Virus record (IMG/VR): IMGVR_UViG_3300025131_000250
Location: 1 to 31,179 of that record
Strand: one strand, 5' to 3'
DNA length: 31,179 nucleotides
Source of the DNA: a virus
The position numbers and the translations under genes were made by a program. Below, in pieces: positions 2,477-22,873 of this stretch (positions are counted from its first letter, which is position 1; each line of letters begins with the position of its first letter). The notes beneath the pieces are model-generated. The model was not told where the DNA came from, did not search any database, and was given only the letters and a program-made list of their open reading frames with translations.

Positions 2477-3916
2477 TCACTTGATTCCGGCTAGCGTCGC
2501 CCATCTATTCACCTGATCGTCAGCTGAGTTGGCCGAAGACCGCCCAGTGACCTTAGAAGATGATCCGATAGCTCTGCGAACCGAAGATTCATTCATTGAT
2601 CCTGACTTGCCCTTATCAAAGGATTCCGTCAGGCTCCTGTAAAGTAGCTTTACTTCTCTCAAGCTTCTAGCATTGTCAATGGACTCAACAACCGACTTTC
2701 TCTGAGCCGGTGTTATTTCCTTGCTTTGCAGAAGCTTATTTACATAAAGAAGCTTAGCATTAAACAGGTTTAGATCTGTCAACTGCTCACGAAGTGTTTC
2801 AACAGCACCTCTGTATTCCTTGAGCCTCACCGAGAGAGATCGATTATTACGTCTCTCATTTCTAAGTTGTTCTGAAAGAACATTTAACTTAACTTGTAGA
2901 GGATCCTTTCCAGGTTTTCCTCCTCCGAAATCTGCGCCTCTTGGCATCTTACCACCAGAGCCGCCATAAGAATTCTTTACACCAGACTTTCCAGAGCCTT
3001 TTCCGCCCCAGCTATCTTGCATGTCGCTCTTTATTCCCTTAATCTTTGTGAGATCCTTGGCTTCAGAAAGATGCTGTCTGAGACGAACTAGCTCGCTACG
3101 AAGAATCTTTTCGTCGATCTCAAATACTTCATCAAGACCTTCAAAATCCTCCAGCTCAATATCCACCTCTTCTTCTTCTTCAGGAGCCTCTGCAGCCTCA
3201 AGATCTTCTTCAGACTCCTCTTCCTCTTCTTCGACTACTCGAATAGTAGGCATGAGGTCCTCTGGAATCTCGAGATCACCTAAGTCTATCTCTAGCCTTG
3301 CCTCATCAAGACTATTAAGTCCTAGCATTGACATAATTTCCTTGATTTCTTGTGCCTCTGCTTTATCAATTGCATCCATGTTATCTCCAGATTTGAGCGT
3401 CTCTAGCTCAGAAAGATCAATTTCGTAAAGATTGTCATCATTCTTAGACGACAAATCATTGTTTGGATTATCATCCATATGACTACTTATTCTCTGTGAA
3501 TCAAAAAGATCATCACTTTCACTAAGTTTATCAGCCATTTTTAAAAGTTTTTCTCGACTGTCGCCGTCGAGTTCAGATATTGATTCTTTAATTGCATCCC
3601 TAACTACGTCCTTGTCAGACACGCTCTTGAAATCATCAGCTCCAAAAAGATTCAATAATGCAGACATTGCACTATCATCTAAAATAACTTCACTATTAGA
3701 TTCTGAAAGATCTGATCCAACTATCTCAGAGGCAACGTCCTGTAATACATCTTCATTTGAACCATCATCAGAGGACTCTCCAATTAACTGCTCTTCTATA
3801 AACTCTCTTATCTTTGGAGTAACTGCTTCAATAATAGCATTTTTGGCATTCTTTTCCGCTGTATCTCTTAACAGCTTCGCCTCTGCTATCGCTTCCTCAT
3901 AAAGAGATTTTGACAT
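2477..3916 (-). CDS. 22: Prohead core scaffold protein, T4 gp22-like
   Basis: This is the internal scaffold around which the prohead forms and which the gp21-type protease later degrades. It has about 479 residues, longer than T4 gp22 (269). The N-terminal half is acidic and helical, peaking in a Glu-run region at about 3106-3240. A Gly-rich linker follows (about 2900-3010), then a helical C-terminal domain carrying LFNAKLLYVNKLL and ARSLREVKLLY, which I associate with gp22-type cores of many myoviruses. It ends in NRWATLAGIK. Many Leu/Ile-x-Glu tripeptides would serve as protease sites. The frame opens at a TTG (3934), but the ATG at 3914-3916 is preferred because AGAGGA (3923-3928) sits 6 bases before it. 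It lies directly upstream of the capsid gene, the T4 order. Confidence 0.9.
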   Translation of the reverse strand: MSKSLYEEAIAEAKLLRDTAEKNAKNAIIEAVTPKIREFIEEQLIGESSDDGSNEDVLQDVASEIVGSDLSESNSEVILDDSAMSALLNLFGADDFKSVSDKDVVRDAIKESISELDGDSREKLLKMADKLSESDDLFDSQRISSHMDDNPNNDLSSKNDDNLYEIDLSELETLKSGDNMDAIDKAEAQEIKEIMSMLGLNSLDEARLEIDLGDLEIPEDLMPTIRVVEEEEEESEEDLEAAEAPEEEEEVDIELEDFEGLDEVFEIDEKILRSELVRLRQHLSEAKDLTKIKGIKSDMQDSWGGKGSGKSGVKNSYGGSGGKMPRGADFGGGKPGKDPLQVKLNVLSEQLRNERRNNRSLSVRLKEYRGAVETLREQLTDLNLFNAKLLYVNKLLQSKEITPAQRKSVVESIDNARSLREVKLLYRSLTESFDKGKSGSMNESSVRRAIGSSSKVTGRSSANSADDQVNRWATLAGIK

Positions 3917-3922
3917 TATTGA

Positions 3923-3928
3923 TCCTCT
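3923..3928 (-). promoter_or_regulatory. Ribosome binding site fixing the scaffold start
   Basis: On the minus strand AGAGGA stands 6 bases before the ATG at 3916. The in-frame TTG at 3934 lies upstream of this site and has no comparable one, so the shorter scaffold reading is preferred. Confidence 0.7.
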
Positions 3929-3938
3929 TCTCAATTAA

Positions 3939-3948
3939 ATATTATGTA
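3939..3948 (-). promoter_or_regulatory. Candidate promoter element upstream of the scaffold gene
   Basis: The minus-strand decamer TACATAATAT lies 23 bases upstream of the scaffold ATG and overlaps the TAA stop of the preceding gene. The same decamer recurs upstream of the small head gene at 5375 (5407-5416), and in both places ATTGAGA follows within a few bases. The distance to the start codon matches that of the two late-promoter-like boxes elsewhere in the window. It could be an AT-rich -10 element or a chance repeat. Confidence 0.3.
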
Positions 3949-4625
3949 TTTTGTGAATTTGCATGTAGCGTTTCATCAATTTTATTGAAAAGCCTAAGCA
4001 ATCTAATTCTCTGCCTTAAAATAGATCTCTCTGTGGGATCGAGATTAAAAATATCGTCCCATCCCATATTCTCTAAATCTTCATCTTCTAAATAGTCAAT
4101 GGGTGCTCTAGAACTACCATACTGTGTTCCGGCACCGCCCACTTTTCCTGGACCAGTTGTATTAAATGCTTGACCTGCACCTCCAGTTCCAAGCGGAGGA
4201 CCATCAAATCCATTTGGATACAATGTTCTATGAGAAAATGGAGCTATTCCACTCATCACAGCCGGCATATTATCAGACTCAGAAAGGTTTCCTATATCCC
4301 ATCTCTGGAGACCAACCATGCTCCCCCTGTCTGCAGATCCTCTTCTTCCGACCTGTGGGTCTATTGCAAGGCGATCTCTACCAGTAACTGCGCTAACCTT
4401 TGATATTAATTCCATCTCATCTTCATCGATATCCTCAATAAAATCATCCTCATATTCTTCATATGAAGTTGGCATCTTATATATTCCTGTTTCTGCCCAG
4501 CCCATAGATGTCTCTGACCCTAGACCTGTCCCAAAGCTAGGAATTTTTTGTCCCTTTCCATAGCCATGACCTATCCTTTGATCAGAATTTGCAGTTGAAG
4601 GATTATAGTAAAGTCTGGTTGCCAA
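3942..4625 (-). CDS. Hypothetical head-region protein (227 aa)
   Basis: I do not recognise a family. The N-terminal half is Gly/Ser/Tyr-rich. A strongly acidic stretch follows at about residues 55-72 (EEYEDDF and EDIDEDEMEL). A Gly-rich middle leads to a helical C-terminus of about 45 residues with an acidic lead-in (DYLEDEDLENMGWDD) and then an Arg/Leu-rich amphipathic helix (RQRIRLLRLF). The best start is a TTG (4623-4625), with GGGG about 9 bases before it. The next in-frame ATG would remove some 40 residues. It lies 5 bases downstream of the 163-residue gene and runs up to the scaffold gene. Its place among protease, scaffold and capsid genes suggests a minor core or internal head protein. 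That is inference from position only. Confidence 0.75.
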   Translation of the reverse strand: MATRLYYNPSTANSDQRIGHGYGKGQKIPSFGTGLGSETSMGWAETGIYKMPTSYEEYEDDFIEDIDEDEMELISKVSAVTGRDRLAIDPQVGRRGSADRGSMVGLQRWDIGNLSESDNMPAVMSGIAPFSHRTLYPNGFDGPPLGTGGAGQAFNTTGPGKVGGAGTQYGSSRAPIDYLEDEDLENMGWDDIFNLDPTERSILRQRIRLLRLFNKIDETLHANSQNT

Positions 4626-9402: not shown

Positions 9403-11028
9403 TCACTTATAAATCCAGTCAAATTCTTTTGCTAGCCTCATCTTGCTATTCCACCCTGCAGATAAAGAATTTTTTCTCTTATTTTCAGATCCTTCCTTAG
9501 GATTTCTAGATGGAGCACTATGAGGTCTTCCCTCTGTTATCGCACCAGGCATATCATCATACGAATTTCTTGTCATTTTCATACTTTTAAGCATAGCATC
9601 ATTTAGCTCCTTTGAATGCTTGCTATGATCAGATGAGCTATCAAATAGCCACATTCCAATTGCAAAGCTTATTACAAGATCGTCGTTATACCCTTTCATT
9701 GCCTTCGCTTTGTTTCCAGCCCACGTGAAAGTCTTTAGTTCCTCATAAAATCTACTTGAATATATCTTAACATTTTTATTTCTAATTGTCTCTTCTAATT
9801 TAGATAATATTAAATTTCTAGTCTTTCCGCTCGTTGTAAAACCTGCTATATCACTATCTTTTGTTGGAACATAGTTTCCTATAAATACAGACTTTCTTTT
9901 CTTATGATACAGGTTTGGATAATCAAGATCCTTTAGCTTAATAATTGTAGCGAATCCATAGCTATTATTTTCAGGACAAAGAAGCGCATCGTTATATTTT
10001 TTTCCAAATTCAAATAATAATTCTCCAAATCTATCGGGAGGAATTTTTCCTCTATACTCTGCAACACACTCTCCTTCTCCGACATCAATGACGTGAAAAG
10101 TTGAAAAATCCTTAGAATCTCCCCTTGCAACATCAGCAGATATAATATAGGAATGTTCTGACAGTGCATGCTTCCATACCCACACATTCATATCATGCCC
10201 TGCTCTTTCTATAGGAGATTTACACATTTCTCTTACCCACTCTATATCTCCGGGTGTTAGAAATGTTTCTCCTGATGAGGCAAAGTCACACAGATACTCT
10301 TGAGAAATCTGTCTATGTGATAAATTTTTGGTCGTCTTATCAAACCAGTCCTGACCTCTCTCAGGATGAACATCCCATTGAAGCTTAACTGAGATAAATT
10401 CATTAGATCGCTTCTCTGCGTCTGTGTAGAGTTTATAATACTGTCCGCCCACACCATTTGGAGTTGAAAGAAGTATTACGCGCCCACCTGTGGAAACTGT
10501 GGGGTATAGCCCAGTCCACAGCGTATCAAAATCTCTAACAAATGCTGCTTCATCAACAATTAATAGAGATAGTGCTTCTGATCGACCTGCGTCATCAGAT
10601 GTAGGAATCGCCTTTATAGATGATCCATGGCTAAACTCTATAAGCTGCTTATTATTTGTGACTATTTCTGGAAGAACTATCCACTTTGGAAGACTTCTAA
10701 TCATAGTCTTAACCTTGGTAATAAAGTTTTGTGCGACGCTTAGCTTTGTTGCAATAATAAGAATATTCTTGTCTTTTTGAAATAGGGCCATCCATACCGC
10801 ATATGCTGCAACAAGTGTAGACATTCCAAGCTGTCGTGACTTTAATATAATTGTAAATCTATTTTCCAAGAATGTCTCAACACAATCATCTTGAAAATCA
10901 TAAGTATCAAATCCTATTAGACCCCTAACTGGGTGCTGTATCTTAAGATAGGAATTGAAAAAATACACAGGATCCTTACCAGATTTGATAATCTCCGATA
11001 CCTGCCTAGATTTATTGACCCTTGACAT
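9403..11028 (-). CDS. terL: Terminase large subunit, T4 gp17-like
   Basis: This is the packaging motor ATPase and headful nuclease that docks on the portal, 541 residues against 610 for T4 gp17. ATPase motifs: Walker A-like KSRQLGMST (residues 63-71), Walker B LLIVDE (D159, E160) and coupling motif LLSTPNG (187-193). The RNase H-fold nuclease shows SADVARGD (D299), CPENNSYG (E353) and GYNDDLV (D449/D450), as in the D-E-D triad of gp17. The Walker A position usually held by Lys before S/T is Met. A Lys at the start of the motif (K63) may replace it, as in other terminases with deviant Walker A motifs. The ATG overlaps the stop of the upstream 126-residue gene in a TAATG arrangement. No small terminase was recognised in the window. 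Confidence 0.96.
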   Translation of the reverse strand: MSRVNKSRQVSEIIKSGKDPVYFFNSYLKIQHPVRGLIGFDTYDFQDDCVETFLENRFTIILKSRQLGMSTLVAAYAVWMALFQKDKNILIIATKLSVAQNFITKVKTMIRSLPKWIVLPEIVTNNKQLIEFSHGSSIKAIPTSDDAGRSEALSLLIVDEAAFVRDFDTLWTGLYPTVSTGGRVILLSTPNGVGGQYYKLYTDAEKRSNEFISVKLQWDVHPERGQDWFDKTTKNLSHRQISQEYLCDFASSGETFLTPGDIEWVREMCKSPIERAGHDMNVWVWKHALSEHSYIISADVARGDSKDFSTFHVIDVGEGECVAEYRGKIPPDRFGELLFEFGKKYNDALLCPENNSYGFATIIKLKDLDYPNLYHKKRKSVFIGNYVPTKDSDIAGFTTSGKTRNLILSKLEETIRNKNVKIYSSRFYEELKTFTWAGNKAKAMKGYNDDLVISFAIGMWLFDSSSDHSKHSKELNDAMLKSMKMTRNSYDDMPGAITEGRPHSAPSRNPKEGSENKRKNSLSAGWNSKMRLAKEFDWIYK

Positions 11029-11435: not shown

Positions 11436-11753
11436 TCATTCAAAAATAAAAAATGAAGATGCCTGTTTTATTATTTCTTTATGAGATAAAACTTCCTCAT
11501 CTGACGGTCTCCAGCCTGATAACCACTTTTCTCTCATAGGTTCAGCCCATTTCATTCCACATTCAGAACAACACTTGAATCTTCTAATATAACTATAATC
11601 ATCCGCTGTATTCATTGTAATTTGGCATACTGGACAAAATAGATAAGATTTTTCTTCTCTATCTTCTGTTATTATCACAAACTTATCTCTATACTCATAT
11701 TTCTTTCCCGAGCTTGATTCTTTAAGGATGGGAAACTTTTGTATTTTTTTCAT
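11436..11753 (-). CDS. Small zinc-ribbon protein overlapping the Rad50-like gene (105 aa)
   Basis: Two CxxC knuckles are visible, C40-P-V-C43 and C62-S-E-C65, about 18 residues apart. They fit a four-Cys zinc ribbon or rubredoxin-like fold, followed by a Trp-rich stretch (MKWAEPMREKWLSGW). The first 10 or so codons overlap the end of the Mre11-Rad50 fusion gene by 32 bases in another frame. Both sequences are coherent there, and the overlap suggests coupled translation. The protein could bind DNA, RNA polymerase or a partner of the recombination complex. None of these can be chosen from sequence alone. Confidence 0.8.
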   Translation of the reverse strand: MKKIQKFPILKESSSGKKYEYRDKFVIITEDREEKSYLFCPVCQITMNTADDYSYIRRFKCCSECGMKWAEPMREKWLSGWRPSDEEVLSHKEIIKQASSFFIFE

Positions 11754-14700
11754 TCTTAATTATCTCCAAAGAGTTGTCTACTATATCTTTAATTTCATCC
11801 ACATGAGATATTATTATAATATTTCTAAACCATTTTTTAAGAGACTCTAATAGTCTACTGCATGCAGCGATATTTGTCTCATCAAGTGCACCAAATCCCT
11901 CATCAATAATTAGCATGTTCGTCTTAGTTAATGATGATACATTAATGAGAGCAACTCTTATTGCAAGAGAAGACATCATCTTCTCCATTCCAGAGGCTAG
12001 TTCAATAACCCTTCTACTATCTCCGTAATCTATAAAAACATCCATCGCATTTGTATCTATGTCTGCCTCTAGCTCAACAGTAAACCCCACAACACCTTGT
12101 AAAATTCTTGAAATTTCAGCATTAATTAAGGGAAGCTGTGACATCATTATCTGAAGAGGTATACCTTTCTTAGACACAGCTTGCATAAAAAGATCATATG
12201 TTCTTAAATCTATCTTGACTTTTTCAAATTCTTTTCTCTTATTTTCCATATCAGAGACCTGGACTCTAAGGCTTGCCACATCTTCAAATAGACCTAATCT
12301 TTTCTTATCAATTCTTTGTATCTCATCTTCTAGAAGTATTATATTTGATCTAATAACTGATGCTGGATTTTCTTCATCCCTAACTAGCCTAGATGACATG
12401 CCATCTAAAATAGAAGATTCTCTTGACAGGCTTGATTCTAGCTGGCCCATCTCATTTTCAATATTATTATGTCTAACTATCAATGATGAGATTTGAACAG
12501 ATAAATCTGACTGTTTTTTAATCATTGCGTTGTATTTTTTAATTTTTTTCTCAACATTCTCACTTAAAATTGATTCAAAGGATATCTTTGCATCTCTTAA
12601 GGATGAAATAGATCTTTGTACTACCTCTCTCTGATCATTTATTATCTTCTTATCTCTATGTGAATCTTTAATAAATTTACAAGTTGGAAACTTGTCTCCA
12701 CAAGGAACCTCTCCTAATTTTTTGATGGAGCCCACTTGGCGATCAAGCTCTCTTTTATTTTTTTCAAGCTGATGATCTAAATCAATAACTGCTCTATCAA
12801 GTTCTTTTTGAATCTCAATCTTCATCTGTAGATCTTTTATAGAAAAGTCTGACTTTACCTGTTCTATTTTTGAATATCTTTTTTGCCTTAAAGCCACCTC
12901 ACTGGTGATCTCTTCTTCCTTGTCTTTTAAGCTTTCTATATCTTTTTTATATCTTGAAACTATTTTTTTCTGGGCTTTGAGTTCTGACACTGTTATGATA
13001 TCCGGATTGTCGGATGTAGCTAATTGAATATTGAGATCCTTTAGTGTGGTTCTTTTTTCAAATATATCTTTTTCAAGCAGCTCTATCTTCTCATCATTTT
13101 CAATTAAATAAAACTTAATATTATCAATTTCCTCATCCCAGTCTATATCTGGATATGATTTTACTTTATTTCTTATATCATATGACTCTATCTTTGCTAT
13201 TTCGTGCATCTTTTCAAACACACCCAGGTCGAGAAATTTTGTTAAAATCATTTTTCTTGATGTGGCGCCTTCTTTAACAAAAGTGCTCATCTCCCCTTGA
13301 GATGCTAGCGATGTCATTAAGAAATCATCAGCTGTCCCAATAAGCTTTCTTAGAATCTTTTCTGTTTCTCTTCTTTGCTCCTCAGTGATATCCTCCTCGA
13401 TATCTCCCAAATTATTTAATTTGTATAGATTTAAAGAAGTTGATGCATAAATCTCTCCCTTTCTTGTCTGGTGTTTTATTGTTGATCTTATGATCCTATA
13501 GGGGTCACCATTTAAATTTATATCAACTACAGCCCTGGCGCTATTTTTTCTATTATTGATTATGTGAATATTTTTAATAGATCCTCTATCTGTTGTATTA
13601 AATAGACCATACATCAATGATCCAATTATAGATGACTTTCCTTTTGCATTTTTTCCAAAAATACCTGTTATCCCAGGAAGATTTTCAAAATTAACAATAT
13701 TTTCATTTCCATACGAGAATAAGTTATCAAATCCCAGTGAATTAATTTCCCACCTGGTGTTTCTTAGAGTATCTTCTTCCCTCGTCACCTGTGACATGTA
13801 TTTTTCTATTAGCTCATCAAATTTTTCAAAATATTTTTCATTTAATTTTCCATCTCTGTAGTACTCTCTAATTAATTTTTTATGAGTCTTTCCATCTCTA
13901 AGATTCTCCTTATTAAATGTTCCAGAGGCTGTCTTTATCTTGGACGCATCAAATGTTGACTCTGACTTGAAGACTACCTCTGTGGCCTCTTTGACTCTCA
14001 TTAGCTCATATTGTAATTGCTTACTATCTGCCTGAGCTATAACACTATCTGATTTTACTCTAAACCTTGAACAATTGGGATATTTGTCAGCTTCATCTAG
14101 TGTCTTTTCAACAGATCCCTTCCAGCATATTGTTATAAATGGATTCAAATGTTGTATTTCATAAAATTTGCTATTAAATGAGTTTTTATTTTCAATATCC
14201 CAGAATAAAAATCCTTTTCCTGTATCTTCACCATAATTTTGCTGTATAGATGATCCGCAGTATGCTATAGTTTTTTTATTGTCTAAATACTGTCTTTTGT
14301 GTATGTCTCCTAGAAGTGTGAAATCAAAATCACTAAAAAAATCAACAGTTATATCTCCATCTATCTCCCAGTTAATATCAGTTGTTGAACCCCACACAGC
14401 ACCATGAAATAATGCAATATTTATTTCGCCTTCAATAGGTTTAACATTCTGCCATCCTTCCTCATCAAAACATGAAAAAACACACCAATTATATCCAGGA
14501 ATACCTGTCGGATATGTTCCTGACCTTTTATAAAGAAAGATATTTGGATCATCTAATGCAGAGAGTATGGGAGATATCGCATCTTGTCTATCTGTATTGT
14601 GTTGTAATCCATCGTGGTTACCAAGAATGACATGCACAGGTGCTATCCTAGACATCTCTGTAAACCACCAACAGAGACTGTCTATCAGCTCTGGAGATAT

Positions 14701-14856
14701 CCCTTGGGTCTTACTGTGTACAATATCACCCCCAAGATAAATTACATCTGGAGACAACTCTCTTATCTTTTCAAAGGCGTCAGAAAATGACTCTTTATAC
14801 TCACTATGACGAGACAGCCCCCTCCAGTGAATATCAGCTAAATGAACAATTTTCAT
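11722..14856 (-). CDS. Single-chain Mre11-Rad50 (SbcD-SbcC; T4 gp47-gp46) fusion
   Basis: One 1044-residue frame joins a nuclease and an SMC-like ATPase that are separate in T4 (gp47, 339; gp46, 560). Residues 1 to about 350 carry the metallophosphoesterase motifs D8-I-H10, GGD (D44), GNHD (N80-H81), H151 and GDIHKR (D184, H186). Residues about 368-1044 carry Rad50 motifs: Walker A GKNAKGKS (401-408), Q-loop ASQGE (Q520), long coiled coils (about 560-900) with a central CGDKFPTC hook (C719, C726), signature ASGMEKMM (954-961), Walker B MLIIDEGFGALDE (981-993) and switch His in ISHVDE (H1018). All catalytic residues appear intact, so both activities are predicted. The complex processes DNA ends and feeds recombination-dependent replication. 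The ATG overlaps the primase stop (ATGA). Confidence 0.95.
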   Translation of the reverse strand: MKIVHLADIHWRGLSRHSEYKESFSDAFEKIRELSPDVIYLGGDIVHSKTQGISPELIDSLCWWFTEMSRIAPVHVILGNHDGLQHNTDRQDAISPILSALDDPNIFLYKRSGTYPTGIPGYNWCVFSCFDEEGWQNVKPIEGEINIALFHGAVWGSTTDINWEIDGDITVDFFSDFDFTLLGDIHKRQYLDNKKTIAYCGSSIQQNYGEDTGKGFLFWDIENKNSFNSKFYEIQHLNPFITICWKGSVEKTLDEADKYPNCSRFRVKSDSVIAQADSKQLQYELMRVKEATEVVFKSESTFDASKIKTASGTFNKENLRDGKTHKKLIREYYRDGKLNEKYFEKFDELIEKYMSQVTREEDTLRNTRWEINSLGFDNLFSYGNENIVNFENLPGITGIFGKNAKGKSSIIGSLMYGLFNTTDRGSIKNIHIINNRKNSARAVVDINLNGDPYRIIRSTIKHQTRKGEIYASTSLNLYKLNNLGDIEEDITEEQRRETEKILRKLIGTADDFLMTSLASQGEMSTFVKEGATSRKMILTKFLDLGVFEKMHEIAKIESYDIRNKVKSYPDIDWDEEIDNIKFYLIENDEKIELLEKDIFEKRTTLKDLNIQLATSDNPDIITVSELKAQKKIVSRYKKDIESLKDKEEEITSEVALRQKRYSKIEQVKSDFSIKDLQMKIEIQKELDRAVIDLDHQLEKNKRELDRQVGSIKKLGEVPCGDKFPTCKFIKDSHRDKKIINDQREVVQRSISSLRDAKISFESILSENVEKKIKKYNAMIKKQSDLSVQISSLIVRHNNIENEMGQLESSLSRESSILDGMSSRLVRDEENPASVIRSNIILLEDEIQRIDKKRLGLFEDVASLRVQVSDMENKRKEFEKVKIDLRTYDLFMQAVSKKGIPLQIMMSQLPLINAEISRILQGVVGFTVELEADIDTNAMDVFIDYGDSRRVIELASGMEKMMSSLAIRVALINVSSLTKTNMLIIDEGFGALDETNIAACSRLLESLKKWFRNIIIISHVDEIKDIVDNSLEIIKNEKNTKVSHP

Positions 14857-15806
14857 ACCAGCGTCCCTATCTTACCGACAAGAGATAAATCTCTAGACCA
14901 GAATATTGAATTTTTTCTTCTTTCTTTAAACTCATCTTTTGTCATTTCTCCTACATCTTGAAAATCACCCAGATCTATCACCCGTACATCACAGCAATAT
15001 GAGCTTAAAAGATCTGCATATTTTCTAGTTTTCTTTTTCATATCAGAGTCAAGTGATAATAGAACTGGCGTTCTATTTGAAATAATTTTTTTAAAAATAT
15101 ATGATTCCTCTCTAAGCGATGATCCAAGAAGACATGTAGAATTCTGGTTACAAGAAAAAAGATCAAATGGACCCTCTACAATGGTTAATTCCTTTTTCCA
15201 GTTTAAATTAACCTCATTAAATACTATGTTCATCTTATCGGATTTTGAATTTATATATTTTGGCTTCCTATCTGGGTCTATTGACCTGGATACAAGATAA
15301 TTTAATTTGCCATCTGAATCAAATGATGGAATTATTATTCTTCTCCTATGCACACCTGTTGAAGATGTTCCTAGCCTAAAGTACCAAAAATCCTTTTTTG
15401 TGAGTCCTCTTCTAAGAAGATACCTTATGCAATCTTTAATATCTGGATCATTACTTTCAAAACTTTTACAAAGAAGAGTGAATTTTTCCGGAAGAAGCAC
15501 GTTAAAGCTATCATCTTCTCTCTCTAGATTATTGCATCCCTGATCATCCTTTAAAAATCTCTCCCTATACCTGTGTGCTACATCGTGACTAAAACTTTTC
15601 TTTAATATTAGAAATAGATTTCTACCTTTTGCGTCACAAACCCAGCAGTGACAGTTCCAAGTTTCCACATTAATAGAAAACTTCTTTTTTCCACTTTTAT
15701 TTTCACATACCGGACAATAGACAGCTACATTTACACCATCTCTTGCTATCTCGACTTCTCCAAAGACATGTCTTAAAAAGTCAATCTTATTTGTAAAGGT
15801 TTCCAA
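14853..15806 (-). CDS. DnaG/T4 gp61-type DNA primase
   Basis: This enzyme makes RNA primers for lagging-strand synthesis. The 317 residues are close to the 342 of T4 gp61. The N-terminal zinc-binding domain has C31-P-V-C34 and C54-W-V-C57 with K-x-F-S-I-N-x-x-x-x-x-W-x-C between. Residues about 140-200 form the RNA polymerase-like part (RRRIIIPSFDSDGKLNYLVSR). The TOPRIM motifs are IVEGPFD (E211) and LSLDSD (D253, D255). The start is TTG (15804-15806) with AAGGG just before it; no nearby in-frame ATG fits the family better. The stop overlaps the ATG of the Mre11-Rad50 fusion, so the two are coupled. No replicative helicase (gp41-like) is visible in the window. Confidence 0.92.
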   Translation of the reverse strand: METFTNKIDFLRHVFGEVEIARDGVNVAVYCPVCENKSGKKKFSINVETWNCHCWVCDAKGRNLFLILKKSFSHDVAHRYRERFLKDDQGCNNLEREDDSFNVLLPEKFTLLCKSFESNDPDIKDCIRYLLRRGLTKKDFWYFRLGTSSTGVHRRRIIIPSFDSDGKLNYLVSRSIDPDRKPKYINSKSDKMNIVFNEVNLNWKKELTIVEGPFDLFSCNQNSTCLLGSSLREESYIFKKIISNRTPVLLSLDSDMKKKTRKYADLLSSYCCDVRVIDLGDFQDVGEMTKDEFKERRKNSIFWSRDLSLVGKIGTLV

Positions 15807-15836
15807 TGTACCCTTTTAAAATATAATTCAAAAAAT

Positions 15837-16382
15837 CTAACTGTTCAATTTAATTCCAGAGGAAGCTATTACATACGCGTCGGCGGCATCGTAGCATCCT
15901 GGCTCTAATATTATATTTCCTTTTCTTGGGCCAGATTTTAATTTTTTTGTCGGCCATTTAAAATTTATCTGGTTAGAGACCCATTGATGTACTTGTTCTT
16001 TAGTGGGTGCTCCTCCTTTTGATTTTCTTATGATTTTTAATCCTACAGACTTTCTAGCTATATTGACATTAATATATGATGGCTCACAAAAAAACTCTTG
16101 CTGTGATAGATACCCAACTATTCCATTAAATCGCGCCAGAGTCAGTAGCGTCTTTGCAGAAGAGAGGCCTGGTCGAAAAGCCTGTAAGTTCTCTTCTATA
16201 AACACGTCTGTGATATCATAGCTTATGTTAAGTGATGATAGAGATTCTTGAACTATTTGGGCCTTTTCAAATAAATTTTTTTCCTTAGATAGCGAAATAT
16301 AACCTAGATTTACAAACGATCCATCTTCATCTAATATACACCATCCCGTGCATGCTGTGGAAACATCTAATCCAAGAATCAA
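15837..16382 (-). CDS. RuvC-like Holliday junction resolvase
   Basis: The protein has the RuvC/RNase H fold and is predicted to cut four-way DNA junctions. In 181 residues it shows the acidic metal-binding set: D6 in LGLDVS, E63/E64 in VFIEEN, and D165 and D168 in YDAADAYVIA near the C-terminus. A basic, Gly/Pro-rich segment (RKSKGGAPT and WPTKKLKSGPRKG) may contact DNA. The start is TTG (16380-16382), preceded by AGGA at 8 bases. It directly abuts the stop of the LamG-like structural gene. T4 uses an unrelated enzyme, endonuclease VII (gp49), to debranch DNA for packaging. A RuvC-like enzyme in the same array as terminase could do the same job here, by inference. Confidence 0.93.
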   Translation of the reverse strand: MILGLDVSTACTGWCILDEDGSFVNLGYISLSKEKNLFEKAQIVQESLSSLNISYDITDVFIEENLQAFRPGLSSAKTLLTLARFNGIVGYLSQQEFFCEPSYINVNIARKSVGLKIIRKSKGGAPTKEQVHQWVSNQINFKWPTKKLKSGPRKGNIILEPGCYDAADAYVIASSGIKLNS

Positions 16383-16383
16383 T

Positions 16384-18771
16384 TTAAAAATCCTTTTTAA
16401 ATTTAATCAAAAACTCATCACTTCTTCGCTTCTTGATGGGTTGTGCTAGGTTAGATCTCATTATAACATTTAAATTATCATCATGTAGGTTTAATCCGGT
16501 GATGTACACAAAATCAGGATCATATTCATTTGGATCAAGAGATGCTGATATAGGCTTAAACACTGGATTAGATGAAGAATTAAACATTCCTACACCCGCC
16601 GGAATATTAACTGTTAACATGTGAATATTTTGCTCGCCCTTACATTTTAATTCAAATTCATCCTTTCCAAAAAATGGAATATTTGGAGACTTGATAACAG
16701 CCACACCCTCATTGTAAAGAACAGTTCCCACATTTGCCCAAGTCGGGTGTGTTGTCAATGCATCTGCTCTAAACAGGCCACCCCTCCCATTATCTTTAAG
16801 TGATATTCTAACTTTTCCTCCGGATCCGGTTACATTAGGGTCTGTTATAAAAAGTGATCCAGGAAGTATTCTATTTCCATAGAATAAATTAGACATATCA
16901 AAGACAGTCACCTCATTTGAGCTTGGGTCTAATGTTCTATCATAAATAGTTAAGACTGGACCGACTGAGGTTTCTATTCCACCAAGATCTGTAGGTGTGC
17001 ATCCCGCTACAGCTTCTGAAATTTCTTGAGGAAGGAGCGGAAGAGCTGCAGAATCAGGGACCATATCATTAATATTGATTACAGAGAGGTCAATTCCACC
17101 CAATATATTTGTAAATTGTGACATATTTGTGCTGACTGATCCGCTTGTGAGAAGATCAAAGTCTGGAACAAACCTTCCATTGTCATTTGGAAGAACTGTT
17201 AGGTTTCTTTTTCTTGTTGATCCTGATGCATACACATACCCATTTGCTGTTATATCCAGCACTGTATGATCTAACGTAGATGCCGTTAAATTATAAAGTC
17301 TAGGATAATACCCTTTAACAAATTCTCTACTAAAGTTTTCTAAATTAAGAAGTCTTCCTCCCACACCAAAAGAAAAATTAACATTGAACGGATCAGTAGG
17401 TGCCTTTCTCTCAGTCTGAAAAGGTGTTATTAAAACATTTCTCTCTCTAGACTCTTTGGCAAAAAAAGGCGGCACATAAAATAATAGGTCTTTTGTATCT
17501 GATCTTCCTGATGATATATTCTGCTTTATCTCATCACCATTTAAATCTCTATCGAATATTTTAATATCATGAATCTCTGCATTTAGTGGATGATCAAGAT
17601 CAAAAGATATGGGATCGTTAGTAAGGCCCGCTGTTTTTGGAAAAAATCCTTCTCGGGAAGCTGCTGTAGTATTAAAAAACTTAGCCTCATTGTCCCATCC
17701 TTCATAATAATTTCCCAAAACTAACGCCTCTGAAGATACATGCTTCGGAGGAAGTATTGAGGAAGATGGCACAGAAAATGGATAATGATCATTATCTATC
17801 CAGATACTTCCTGTTCCATCACTTACACTCTTTCCTCCCCACGCTATGGAGACATGATGCCAATTATTTTTACTTAAAGAATTATCAGCTGTTACAAAAA
17901 TCAAATCTTCAGGATACGATCTTGTATTGTTTTTTGTATTTAAATTTACCCTAGATGGTCGTCTATCTGCACTATGACTAAGTTGAAGTAATATTCTATA
18001 TCCACTTACATTCCCATCTCCATCTCTGCCGCTTCCCGAAACTAATGATACAGCAAATGCTGAAGAAAGATGCATAATCGTTCCGGCTTTGAAGTCTTTT
18101 CCGGGATCGTTTGTATATCTTGGGTTTATATAAAAATCTATTGTAAAAGATCCAGTCGGGTAATACGGCCTTGTCTCTCCTGCCTTTCTTTGAGCATTTG
18201 AGTATATTAGTGCTGAATCAGATGGAACTAGTGAAGAAGTAAAAAAGTTAAGAGTATGATAGTTTGTATACACAAATTGACAATTATCATAACTAGAAGC
18301 ATAGTATGGCATCAAAATATTTCTTACTATACTTTTTGCTGCTGTGTTCAGATTAAATAAGTATGGTGGGTCGAATCTTACAACATTAAATCGTTTTGAG
18401 TTTCTAGCGATTTGAGATGATGAATTAACTATCTCCATATAGTCAGACATGCTTGACCTAAGATCATAGCCTGTTCCAGCTTCAATTGCCTCAATTGCCG
18501 TTCTAGAAATATTTTCTAAATCAATTGCTGCCGCATAATCTTCCTCATTAAACCCTGGAACACCAGAGCTTTCTGCATCATACGAATTCTCTCCCCATTG
18601 AGAAGGATCTATTAGATTTTTAAAACACTTGCTAGGCCTAGCAGAAAGATGTGCAGAGCCTGTAGTTAATGCTGTTGCAGGTTGAAGAGATGAGCTAACA
18701 AAATCTATCTCTGGATGAAGCGTTAAAGAAAAGTGCTCTATGTATTCAGGAAGTATCTTTATAAGAGACAT
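16384..18771 (-). CDS. Virion protein with LamG-like domain (probable tail fibre/appendage)
   Basis: The 795-residue protein has an internal concanavalin/LamG-like domain at about residues 205-415. Its marks are GSFTIDFYINPR, NNWHHVSIAWGG, GSIWIDND, VLGNYYEGWD and AEIHDIKIFDRDL, the usual pattern of a glycan-binding jelly-roll. The last 270 residues (NGRFVPDF, NVGTVLYNEGVAV, FNSSSNPVF, FVYITGLNLHD, QPIKK, final KDF) match in order the C-terminal module of the adjacent 425-residue protein. The start is ATG with a GGAG-type site; the gap to the upstream gene is 13 bases. A role in adsorption or in a tail decoration is inferred from the LamG fold and the setting. There is no match to a named T4 fibre gene. 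Confidence 0.88.
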   Translation of the reverse strand: MSLIKILPEYIEHFSLTLHPEIDFVSSSLQPATALTTGSAHLSARPSKCFKNLIDPSQWGENSYDAESSGVPGFNEEDYAAAIDLENISRTAIEAIEAGTGYDLRSSMSDYMEIVNSSSQIARNSKRFNVVRFDPPYLFNLNTAAKSIVRNILMPYYASSYDNCQFVYTNYHTLNFFTSSLVPSDSALIYSNAQRKAGETRPYYPTGSFTIDFYINPRYTNDPGKDFKAGTIMHLSSAFAVSLVSGSGRDGDGNVSGYRILLQLSHSADRRPSRVNLNTKNNTRSYPEDLIFVTADNSLSKNNWHHVSIAWGGKSVSDGTGSIWIDNDHYPFSVPSSSILPPKHVSSEALVLGNYYEGWDNEAKFFNTTAASREGFFPKTAGLTNDPISFDLDHPLNAEIHDIKIFDRDLNGDEIKQNISSGRSDTKDLLFYVPPFFAKESRERNVLITPFQTERKAPTDPFNVNFSFGVGGRLLNLENFSREFVKGYYPRLYNLTASTLDHTVLDITANGYVYASGSTRKRNLTVLPNDNGRFVPDFDLLTSGSVSTNMSQFTNILGGIDLSVININDMVPDSAALPLLPQEISEAVAGCTPTDLGGIETSVGPVLTIYDRTLDPSSNEVTVFDMSNLFYGNRILPGSLFITDPNVTGSGGKVRISLKDNGRGGLFRADALTTHPTWANVGTVLYNEGVAVIKSPNIPFFGKDEFELKCKGEQNIHMLTVNIPAGVGMFNSSSNPVFKPISASLDPNEYDPDFVYITGLNLHDDNLNVIMRSNLAQPIKKRRSDEFLIKFKKDF

Positions 18772-20854: not shown

Positions 20855-22873
20855 TCATTCACCTTCTACAACGGCATTTTCTAACCCGAGCGTAACTACT
20901 GTTGCTCTATTAACACCAATCTGTAGTGGTGGACCCGATTGATCGTCAATATTTATATTAACGATACTACTCATCTGATCATCGACGTTAATTATCTGTA
21001 ACTTATACTGAGCTCCATCTGGAAGAAAATTTAAATCAACTGATTTAGATACTAATTTACTCTTCTCTTCAGCTGAGTCGTATACCTCTACTAGTTGATT
21101 TTTAAATACCTTATAGTACTCAGGATCAAAAAATACTCTTAGCCTTGAATGTCCGGAATCTCTCATTGTATCCACAAAAAGATCAGTATTTAAATATAGA
21201 TTAGGATAGGGTTTTGGTGCTCCTGAAGATGATATAAGATCTAGCTCAACCTTATTTTTAAATTTATCAAATGAAACCATAAACTGTGCTGAATAGTTTG
21301 ATGTTAATCCTCTTGCATCTACTGCGCATACCGAGTAAATATATTTTGACTCCTTTGTAAATTCTAAATCTCTAAATGTCTTTGCAGCTGAAGTTAATTT
21401 AACTATCTTATCCTCTGGAGCCTCTTCTTTTGTGGGCTGAATAGATGTCGACTGGTCAAAGTCTAGCATAGCTATTAGCGTAAATGGCACATCAATTGAT
21501 GCCCTTCTAAAAACCTGGTATCTAGTGACATCTCTCTGCGGATTCATTGGTGCATCCCACAGTATCATTAAATTATCATTGCCATAATCCCAGATAAATT
21601 TAATATCTGTGGGAACTCCTGGTGGGACATTTTCAACACATTCAACTGTATCAGTCCTTCCATCAGATGCAACCATGACTACAGCTGTAACAACCTGATC
21701 CTCGACCTCTCCGAAGTCATCCCTATCAACTGCTTCAAACCTTGTCAAACAAACAGTTTTAACATTGTATATATAAGACCCGCCGTATCTAACTGCAGTA
21801 TCAAGAAGCTGAATATCTCCATATTTATCAACTATTAATGGCGGATGTTCGATTCTGCTTCCGTCCGGTGCTATCTCTAATTTTTCCACATAAAACCCAA
21901 TGGGATAAGATCCCTCATTAAATTTTCCCGAATCTTCCACAGCTGTGGCATCAACGGCAGACTCCCAGACTGGCTCTATTGTTATTTCATATTCATCAGC
22001 AGATATCGCACCAGGTATTGTAGTTGAAACGGACGCTAACTGTGCAGTCTCAGCGTGTTTTACCATTGATCTCATCTCATCTTCGTATATATTAGTTTTA
22101 TCCTCTATCGATCCTCTCACCATATTATTAAAAACAAGATTATTAATATTAATATCCCAGTCAAGAAATCTCACAGTCCTAAATGCATCAGATGTTACCT
22201 CTTGTCTAACATCTGCTTCTGCATATGTTACTCCCTGTGACTGAATATTAGATAGCGCATCTCTTATAGCAGAGCCGTCTGATGACCAAGCAGAAGATGC
22301 ATCTGTATATTCAATTAGCTCCTCTGACTCTGTATTACCATTTACATCAGTATCGAGACCAAAAAAATTAACAGAACCCTCTATCATTGTATAAAAACTT
22401 GAATCTATTTGATCATCTTTTAGGTTAATTCCGCTAAAGTATGCTGATGCCACTGCACCTTCAAACATCAGCTGGTCTCTCATTTCTGATATTGTTAGTG
22501 TGCTGGCTATTCCTTCCAGAAATTCATCAGGATCAGTAAATTCTGCAGCTGATATATTAATAAGAGAATATCTAGGATATTTGTCTAATTTTGCTAATTG
22601 TATATTTTCCTGAGAGGTGTCATTTAAATTTACTACATCTAGAACCCCTGCAGAGTTTGTCCTCTCATCCTTTGTATAAAAATTATAGACAAACTCTGTT
22701 GTTACAGATATTGGCTCTGGTATATTGATGAGTGTTACAGGTCTAGAAGGATATGTTGTAAAATTCCACTCGGTGGATACGGGCTCAGATTCACTTTGCA
22801 CTATTTCAGTTGCATCAAATCCGGCTCGCTTTGTAACAGATGATGCTGCATCGTTGGCAAATGGTTGTGCCAT
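20855..22873 (-). CDS. Virion structural protein with fibronectin-III-like domain (672 aa)
   Basis: Residues about 415-535 form a fibronectin type III-like domain: PPGVPTDIKFIWDY, LMILWDAPMN, VTRYQVFRRA, then YIYSVCAVDARGLTSNYS, the usual strand order. The upstream half has no motif I know. Its segments (EFVYNFYTKDERTNSAG, DWDININNLVFNN) look like a beta/alpha virion protein, and a short domain after the FN3 unit ends in VEGE. GGAGG lies before the ATG. A 57-base gap separates it from the 1391-residue gene, and no terminator is seen there. Position among giant structural genes suggests a baseplate, tail-fibre connector or neck whisker-like protein. This is inference. Confidence 0.87.
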   Translation of the reverse strand: MAQPFANDAASSVTKRAGFDATEIVQSESEPVSTEWNFTTYPSRPVTLINIPEPISVTTEFVYNFYTKDERTNSAGVLDVVNLNDTSQENIQLAKLDKYPRYSLINISAAEFTDPDEFLEGIASTLTISEMRDQLMFEGAVASAYFSGINLKDDQIDSSFYTMIEGSVNFFGLDTDVNGNTESEELIEYTDASSAWSSDGSAIRDALSNIQSQGVTYAEADVRQEVTSDAFRTVRFLDWDININNLVFNNMVRGSIEDKTNIYEDEMRSMVKHAETAQLASVSTTIPGAISADEYEITIEPVWESAVDATAVEDSGKFNEGSYPIGFYVEKLEIAPDGSRIEHPPLIVDKYGDIQLLDTAVRYGGSYIYNVKTVCLTRFEAVDRDDFGEVEDQVVTAVVMVASDGRTDTVECVENVPPGVPTDIKFIWDYGNDNLMILWDAPMNPQRDVTRYQVFRRASIDVPFTLIAMLDFDQSTSIQPTKEEAPEDKIVKLTSAAKTFRDLEFTKESKYIYSVCAVDARGLTSNYSAQFMVSFDKFKNKVELDLISSSGAPKPYPNLYLNTDLFVDTMRDSGHSRLRVFFDPEYYKVFKNQLVEVYDSAEEKSKLVSKSVDLNFLPDGAQYKLQIINVDDQMSSIVNINIDDQSGPPLQIGVNRATVVTLGLENAVVEGE

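Follow-up and report, generated by a model that had tools for sequence, protein, structure and literature searches.

Fused Mre11/Rad50 proteins are not new; they have been described since 2011, when Yoshida, Claverie and Ogata reported Mimivirus R555 and twelve others, from Mimivirus, Bacillus phage, bacteria, plasmids and eukaryotes (PMC3175470). The same paper named phages as the suspected source of the abundant R555-like marine sequences (PMC3175470). In T4-like and SPO1-like phages separate, adjacent Mre11 and Rad50 genes are the rule, and the T4 products, Gp46 and Gp47, are thought to resect ends ahead of UvsX loading (PMC3016280). CXXC has been described as highly conserved in Rad50 hooks (PMC9569753). 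The sequence-only reading from which this work started held that in T4, bacteria and eukaryotes Mre11 and Rad50 are normally two proteins, and any novelty that this implies is overstated in view of the 2011 report (PMC3175470).

The window analysed here is the whole of a 31-kb virus record (31,179 nucleotides), and the gene under study lies on its minus strand (11722..14856), running from 14856 to 11722 with 1044 codons from the ATG and no stop among them. The product of 1044 residues has a Mre11-like half followed by a Rad50-like half in one frame. The single uninterrupted frame and its coordinates had been given correctly before, although the strand had been left unstated, and both domains were matched in our searches. 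Pfam Metallophos (PF00149) covered residues 1-187 (E 8e-13), SMC_N covered residues 372-1039 (E 6e-8, just short of the curated cut-off), and PHROG 77, an SbcC-like subunit, covered residues 285-1042 (E 1e-47). When the two halves were compared by sequence with solved structures, Rad50 and Mre11 chains were matched.

The first 240 residues (14137..14856, minus strand) form an Mre11/SbcD-type calcineurin-like nuclease domain, assigned by PF00149, the GNHD and GDIH motifs and a set of invariant residues; in a structural comparison the domain matched S. aureus SbcD (7dog). D8, H10, D44, N80, H81, H151, D184 and H186 were found at the residues where they had been placed earlier, and all are invariant in the 62 distinct aligned sequences. 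The Mre11/SbcD metal-ligand motifs (D-x-H, GDxxD/H, GNHD/E, H and GHxH) are all present, motif V having the variant form GDIH, with D184 at the canonical His position of GHxH. Given that GDIH replaces GHxH throughout the window clade, one could envisage that the protein is mainly a structural or end-tethering component whose nuclease has been weakened by the His-to-Asp change. We consider this unlikely, because Asp is a possible metal ligand too and does not vary in the alignment, and the remaining ligands are likewise invariant. Furthermore, R555 of Mimivirus also carries this change, an Asp replacing His206 of Pf Mre11 (PMC3175470), and GDIH is also found in Microcystis phage Mel-JY01, in Tenacibaculum phage pT24 and in the majority of the other phage fusions examined, whereas GHYH was read in three phages whose genes are separate. 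That R555 and most of these phage fusions share the substitution points to a trait of the class and not to decay.

The Rad50 half (all features on the minus strand) carries the Walker A motif GKNAKGKS at residues 401-408 (13633..13656), the ABC signature ASGMEKMM at residues 954-961 (11974..11997), and Walker B residues D985 and E986 (11899..11904), which are followed by the D-loop LD at 991-992. The Walker A, signature and Walker B motifs were at the positions previously assigned to them and are mostly invariant in the alignment. Together with the D-loop they surround a long coiled coil, the arrangement that defines the Rad50/SbcC ATPase; in the structural model the arms appear as long antiparallel helices (residues 545-894; 12175..13224). 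Judged by these motifs, the protein is a single-chain Mre11-Rad50 with an intact set of nuclease and ATPase residues.

The adjacency of Mre11 and Rad50 genes in T4-like and SPO1-like phages raises the possibility that the join arose when two neighbouring genes were merged by an assembly or sequencing error. When IMG/VR was scanned for peptide patterns taken from the two halves, 80 loci were found; apart from those truncated by a contig end, each has the complete gene, with all domains in one frame. This search for the same domain order, which had been proposed in the sequence-only reading, gave 66 other full-length in-frame fused copies, ranging in identity from 100% to approximately 38%. Copies occurred at every identity level, including three at 100% on other contigs. 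Because these 66 copies exist, and on independent contigs, we exclude chance and reject the assembly error. Fused frames are also present in the isolate phages Mel-JY01 and pT24. In addition, in a comparison with an 83% identical relative the region containing the join (residues 301-371) has 28 codons that differ synonymously and 9 that differ nonsynonymously, a pattern indicating that the join is under purifying selection, as expected of one translated, selected chain. The probability of an artefact is therefore negligible, and the comparisons confirm the fusion as real and common to a large phage clade. No full-length fused match was found among plasmid homologues, and the matches in genome collections sit in MAG contigs of uncertain binning.

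An AlphaFold2 model built with a 51-sequence alignment (mean pLDDT 82.5, pTM 0.57) showed the domains of both halves in order, with the nuclease followed by the helix-loop-helix and then by the ATPase head with its coiled coil. With a pTM of 0.57, the position of the Mre11 half relative to the Rad50 half is uncertain. Residues 240-298 alternate between strands and helices, and we assign the capping domain to approximately residues 241-320 (13897..14136, minus strand) from the model and the Mre11 fold, the boundary being a probable one. Helices were predicted at 322-332 and 340-360, and the first Rad50 strand starts at 368. In the model, the helix-loop-helix (residues 322-360; 13777..13893, minus strand) occupies the place of the Rad50-binding domain of Mre11, and the C-termini of separate phage Mre11 proteins have a sequence pattern resembling it. 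This region is thus predicted to be retained despite the fusion, contrary to the earlier suggestion that a single chain removes the need for it. As a consequence the linker, which had been put at roughly residues 320-368, would consist of only about seven residues (361-367; 13756..13776, minus strand); by an estimate in the 2011 paper, nine to twelve residues would bridge the Mre11-Rad50 gap (PMC3175470). R555-type fusions share the domain order, a region of helix-loop-helix length, the short linker and the Asp in motif V with the window clade.

Mre11-Rad50 complexes ranked at the top of a Foldseek comparison of the model with the PDB. Among viral models the best matches were full-length repair exonucleases of the giant viruses Tupanvirus, Harvfovirus and Yasminevirus and of Tenacibaculum phage pT24; the first three are taken to be fusions from length and coverage alone, and in pT24 the fused frame was read. 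The pT24 protein (BPT24_019) resembles that of the window in its fusion, its GDIH motif and its fold over the whole length, but it is longer (1310 aa), only about 23% identical and has a CHKC hook. The Mel-JY01 protein (WWT39521.1, 1066 aa, annotated as "AAA domain containing protein") is 30% identical to the window protein over its full length and is likewise fused, with GDIH and with a primase gene just upstream, but its hook is of the CXXC type (CKHC). R555, which is known here from the paper, has 1351 aa and a coiled coil of cellular length, whereas proteins of the window clade have approximately 1040 aa. The description of the protein as a minimal MR complex is thus fair in relation to cellular complexes, but not in relation to T4-like phages, since Rad50 of S-RIM4 has only 573 aa.

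The hook is the less expected detail, albeit an apparently small variation. At the coiled-coil apex (residues 719-726; 12679..12702, minus strand) the window protein has C-G-D-K-F-P-T-C, that is, C-x6-C instead of CXXC, and in the model C719-x6-C726 (VPCGDKFPTCKFI) lies where helix 673-716 turns back into helix 730-764. In the alignment C726 is invariant and C719 is at least 90% conserved; nearly the whole clade has C-x6-C, and two members have C-x-C. CXXC is typical of Rad50 but nonessential to the assignment, and with the ATPase features in place C-x6-C marks what is by sequence a Rad50 variant. CXXC hooks were found in Mel-JY01 and its relatives, in a huge-phage group and in the three phages with split genes. 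In a quick maximum-likelihood tree (simple model, no bootstrap, with a long-branch warning) the C-x6-C sequences, with the two C-x-C sequences nested inside, formed one clade with an SH-aLRT of 100, and the hook labels required the minimum possible number of changes; the tree is supportive rather than final with regard to a single origin of C-x6-C. A search of the open-access literature for non-CXXC hooks gave nothing, which is weak evidence. We tentatively propose, as a possibility somewhat short of even, that this marine clade, with Mre11 covalently attached, swapped the near-universal CXXC for C-x6-C (C-x-C in two members) and so acquired a joint with a different zinc geometry or affinity, or one formed by disulphides or another metal. 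The C-x6-C hook may still bind zinc.

The source of the window is an uncultured, T4-related marine phage clade. The major head protein is similar to gp23 of T4-like phages and the terminase to gp17; judged by these two proteins, Flavobacterium phage Immuto and Microcystis phage Mel-JY01 are the isolates that come closest. T4 gp47/gp46 and their homologues in S-RIM4, ECP3 and KKP_4050, T4-like or SPO1-like phages, have the same domains and presumed role as the window protein, and T4-like phages have the same type of capsid and terminase; however, S-RIM4, ECP3 and KKP_4050 have two genes, GHYH in motif V and CXXC hooks, whereas the two subunits that are separate in T4 lie here in one frame. Three neighbours on the minus strand are conserved: a DnaG-like primase (14853..15806; PHROG 47, E 3e-40), which overlaps the start of the fusion by 4 bases, a RuvC-like Holliday junction resolvase (15837..16382; PHROG 159 and 827), and downstream a T4-type, gp17-like large terminase (9403..11028; PHROG 2, with matches to gp17 of T4-like cyanophages). 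Where window-clade loci were sufficiently long, the order RuvC, primase, fusion, two small genes and large terminase was usually kept, and in some loci the primase lies several kilobases upstream. No Rfam match was found in the window. Two stretches of the window (16384-18771 and 20855-22873) encode large proteins that weakly match laminin-G-like and fibronectin type III domains and are probably involved in tail structure or adsorption.

Several relatives differ at the corresponding gene. In L083 (LR756508.1, a 484-kb phage) it is broken just after GDIHKRQ by approximately 1 kb (about 2570-3635). This stretch contains an ORF of 305 aa that has pairs of Cys and weakly matches a TnsA-like endonuclease (E 6e-6); it looks like an insertion of the homing-endonuclease type, and no Rfam intron was found in it. 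In L132 some 100 bases that bring a stop and a change of frame split the gene at this same position, after GDIHKMQ (about 3865-4000); they could be a small insertion or remnant at a shared hot spot, or else a fault of the assembly. The huge phage LR756501.1 (735 kb) seems to have a fused Mre11-Rad50 gene and, in addition, a second, separate Rad50-like gene (278537-282124 and 670999-672753). In Immuto (L147), which is close by capsid and terminase, a split fusion gene had been suspected beside the primase, but the neighbour proved to be a PD-(D/E)XK-type nuclease (14447-16151), possibly a non-homologous replacement. PHROG-77 Rad50 was not detected in the Immuto genome by a search that also missed the divergent pT24 fusion.

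SbcCD-like nucleases can cleave hairpins and protein-blocked ends, and the protein might accordingly act in defence or counter-defence, for example in host DNA breakdown or against host defences, rather than in phage recombination. The PDB fold list includes the SMC-like Lamassu and JetABCD complexes, as expected of any SMC-type head. We regard such a role as very unlikely, given the conserved position beside primase and RuvC. Moreover, in 12 long relatives, which are probably incomplete, the fusion was the only strong Rad50-like match; no strong second Mre11/Rad50 pair was detected in them, only weak PHROG-77 matches (E 1e-5 or worse), and their other phosphoesterases are small, single-domain proteins of 224-298 aa. 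A RecA/UvsX-type gene, the expected partner in recombination, was present in seven of the nine long viral relatives tested (a count that leaves out two further RecA-positive records, which are bacterial MAGs), and a divergent family-A polymerase domain in eight of the nine.

We conclude that the gene very probably encodes a working single-chain Mre11-Rad50 of a T4-related marine phage clade, which would act as an M2R2 assembly and resect ends for recombination-dependent replication. Two such chains would probably be joined at their Rad50 heads, at the dimer face of Mre11 and, at the apex of the coiled coil, by the hook. The result would be the usual M2R2 complex, in which a tether of about seven residues connects the subunits. 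By analogy, the job of T4 gp46/gp47 is the most likely one for the fusion: it would resect the double-strand ends of the linear phage genome, and a recombinase of the UvsX/RecA type may then use these ends for recombination-dependent replication and for repair. It is from conserved anatomy and neighbours that we infer the dimeric form, the nuclease activity and the resection role.

The abundant R555-like sequences of marine viral metagenomes lie beside phage-like primases, as do the genes of the window clade. These whole genes back the view put forward in 2011 that phages are the main source of the marine "Mimivirus R555-like" sequences, R555 itself being compared through the published description. 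The clade supplies compact single-chain Mre11-Rad50 proteins of fixed 1:1 stoichiometry for structural work, together with a natural zinc-hook variant for comparison with related fusions that have CXXC, such as those of the Mel-JY01 clade.
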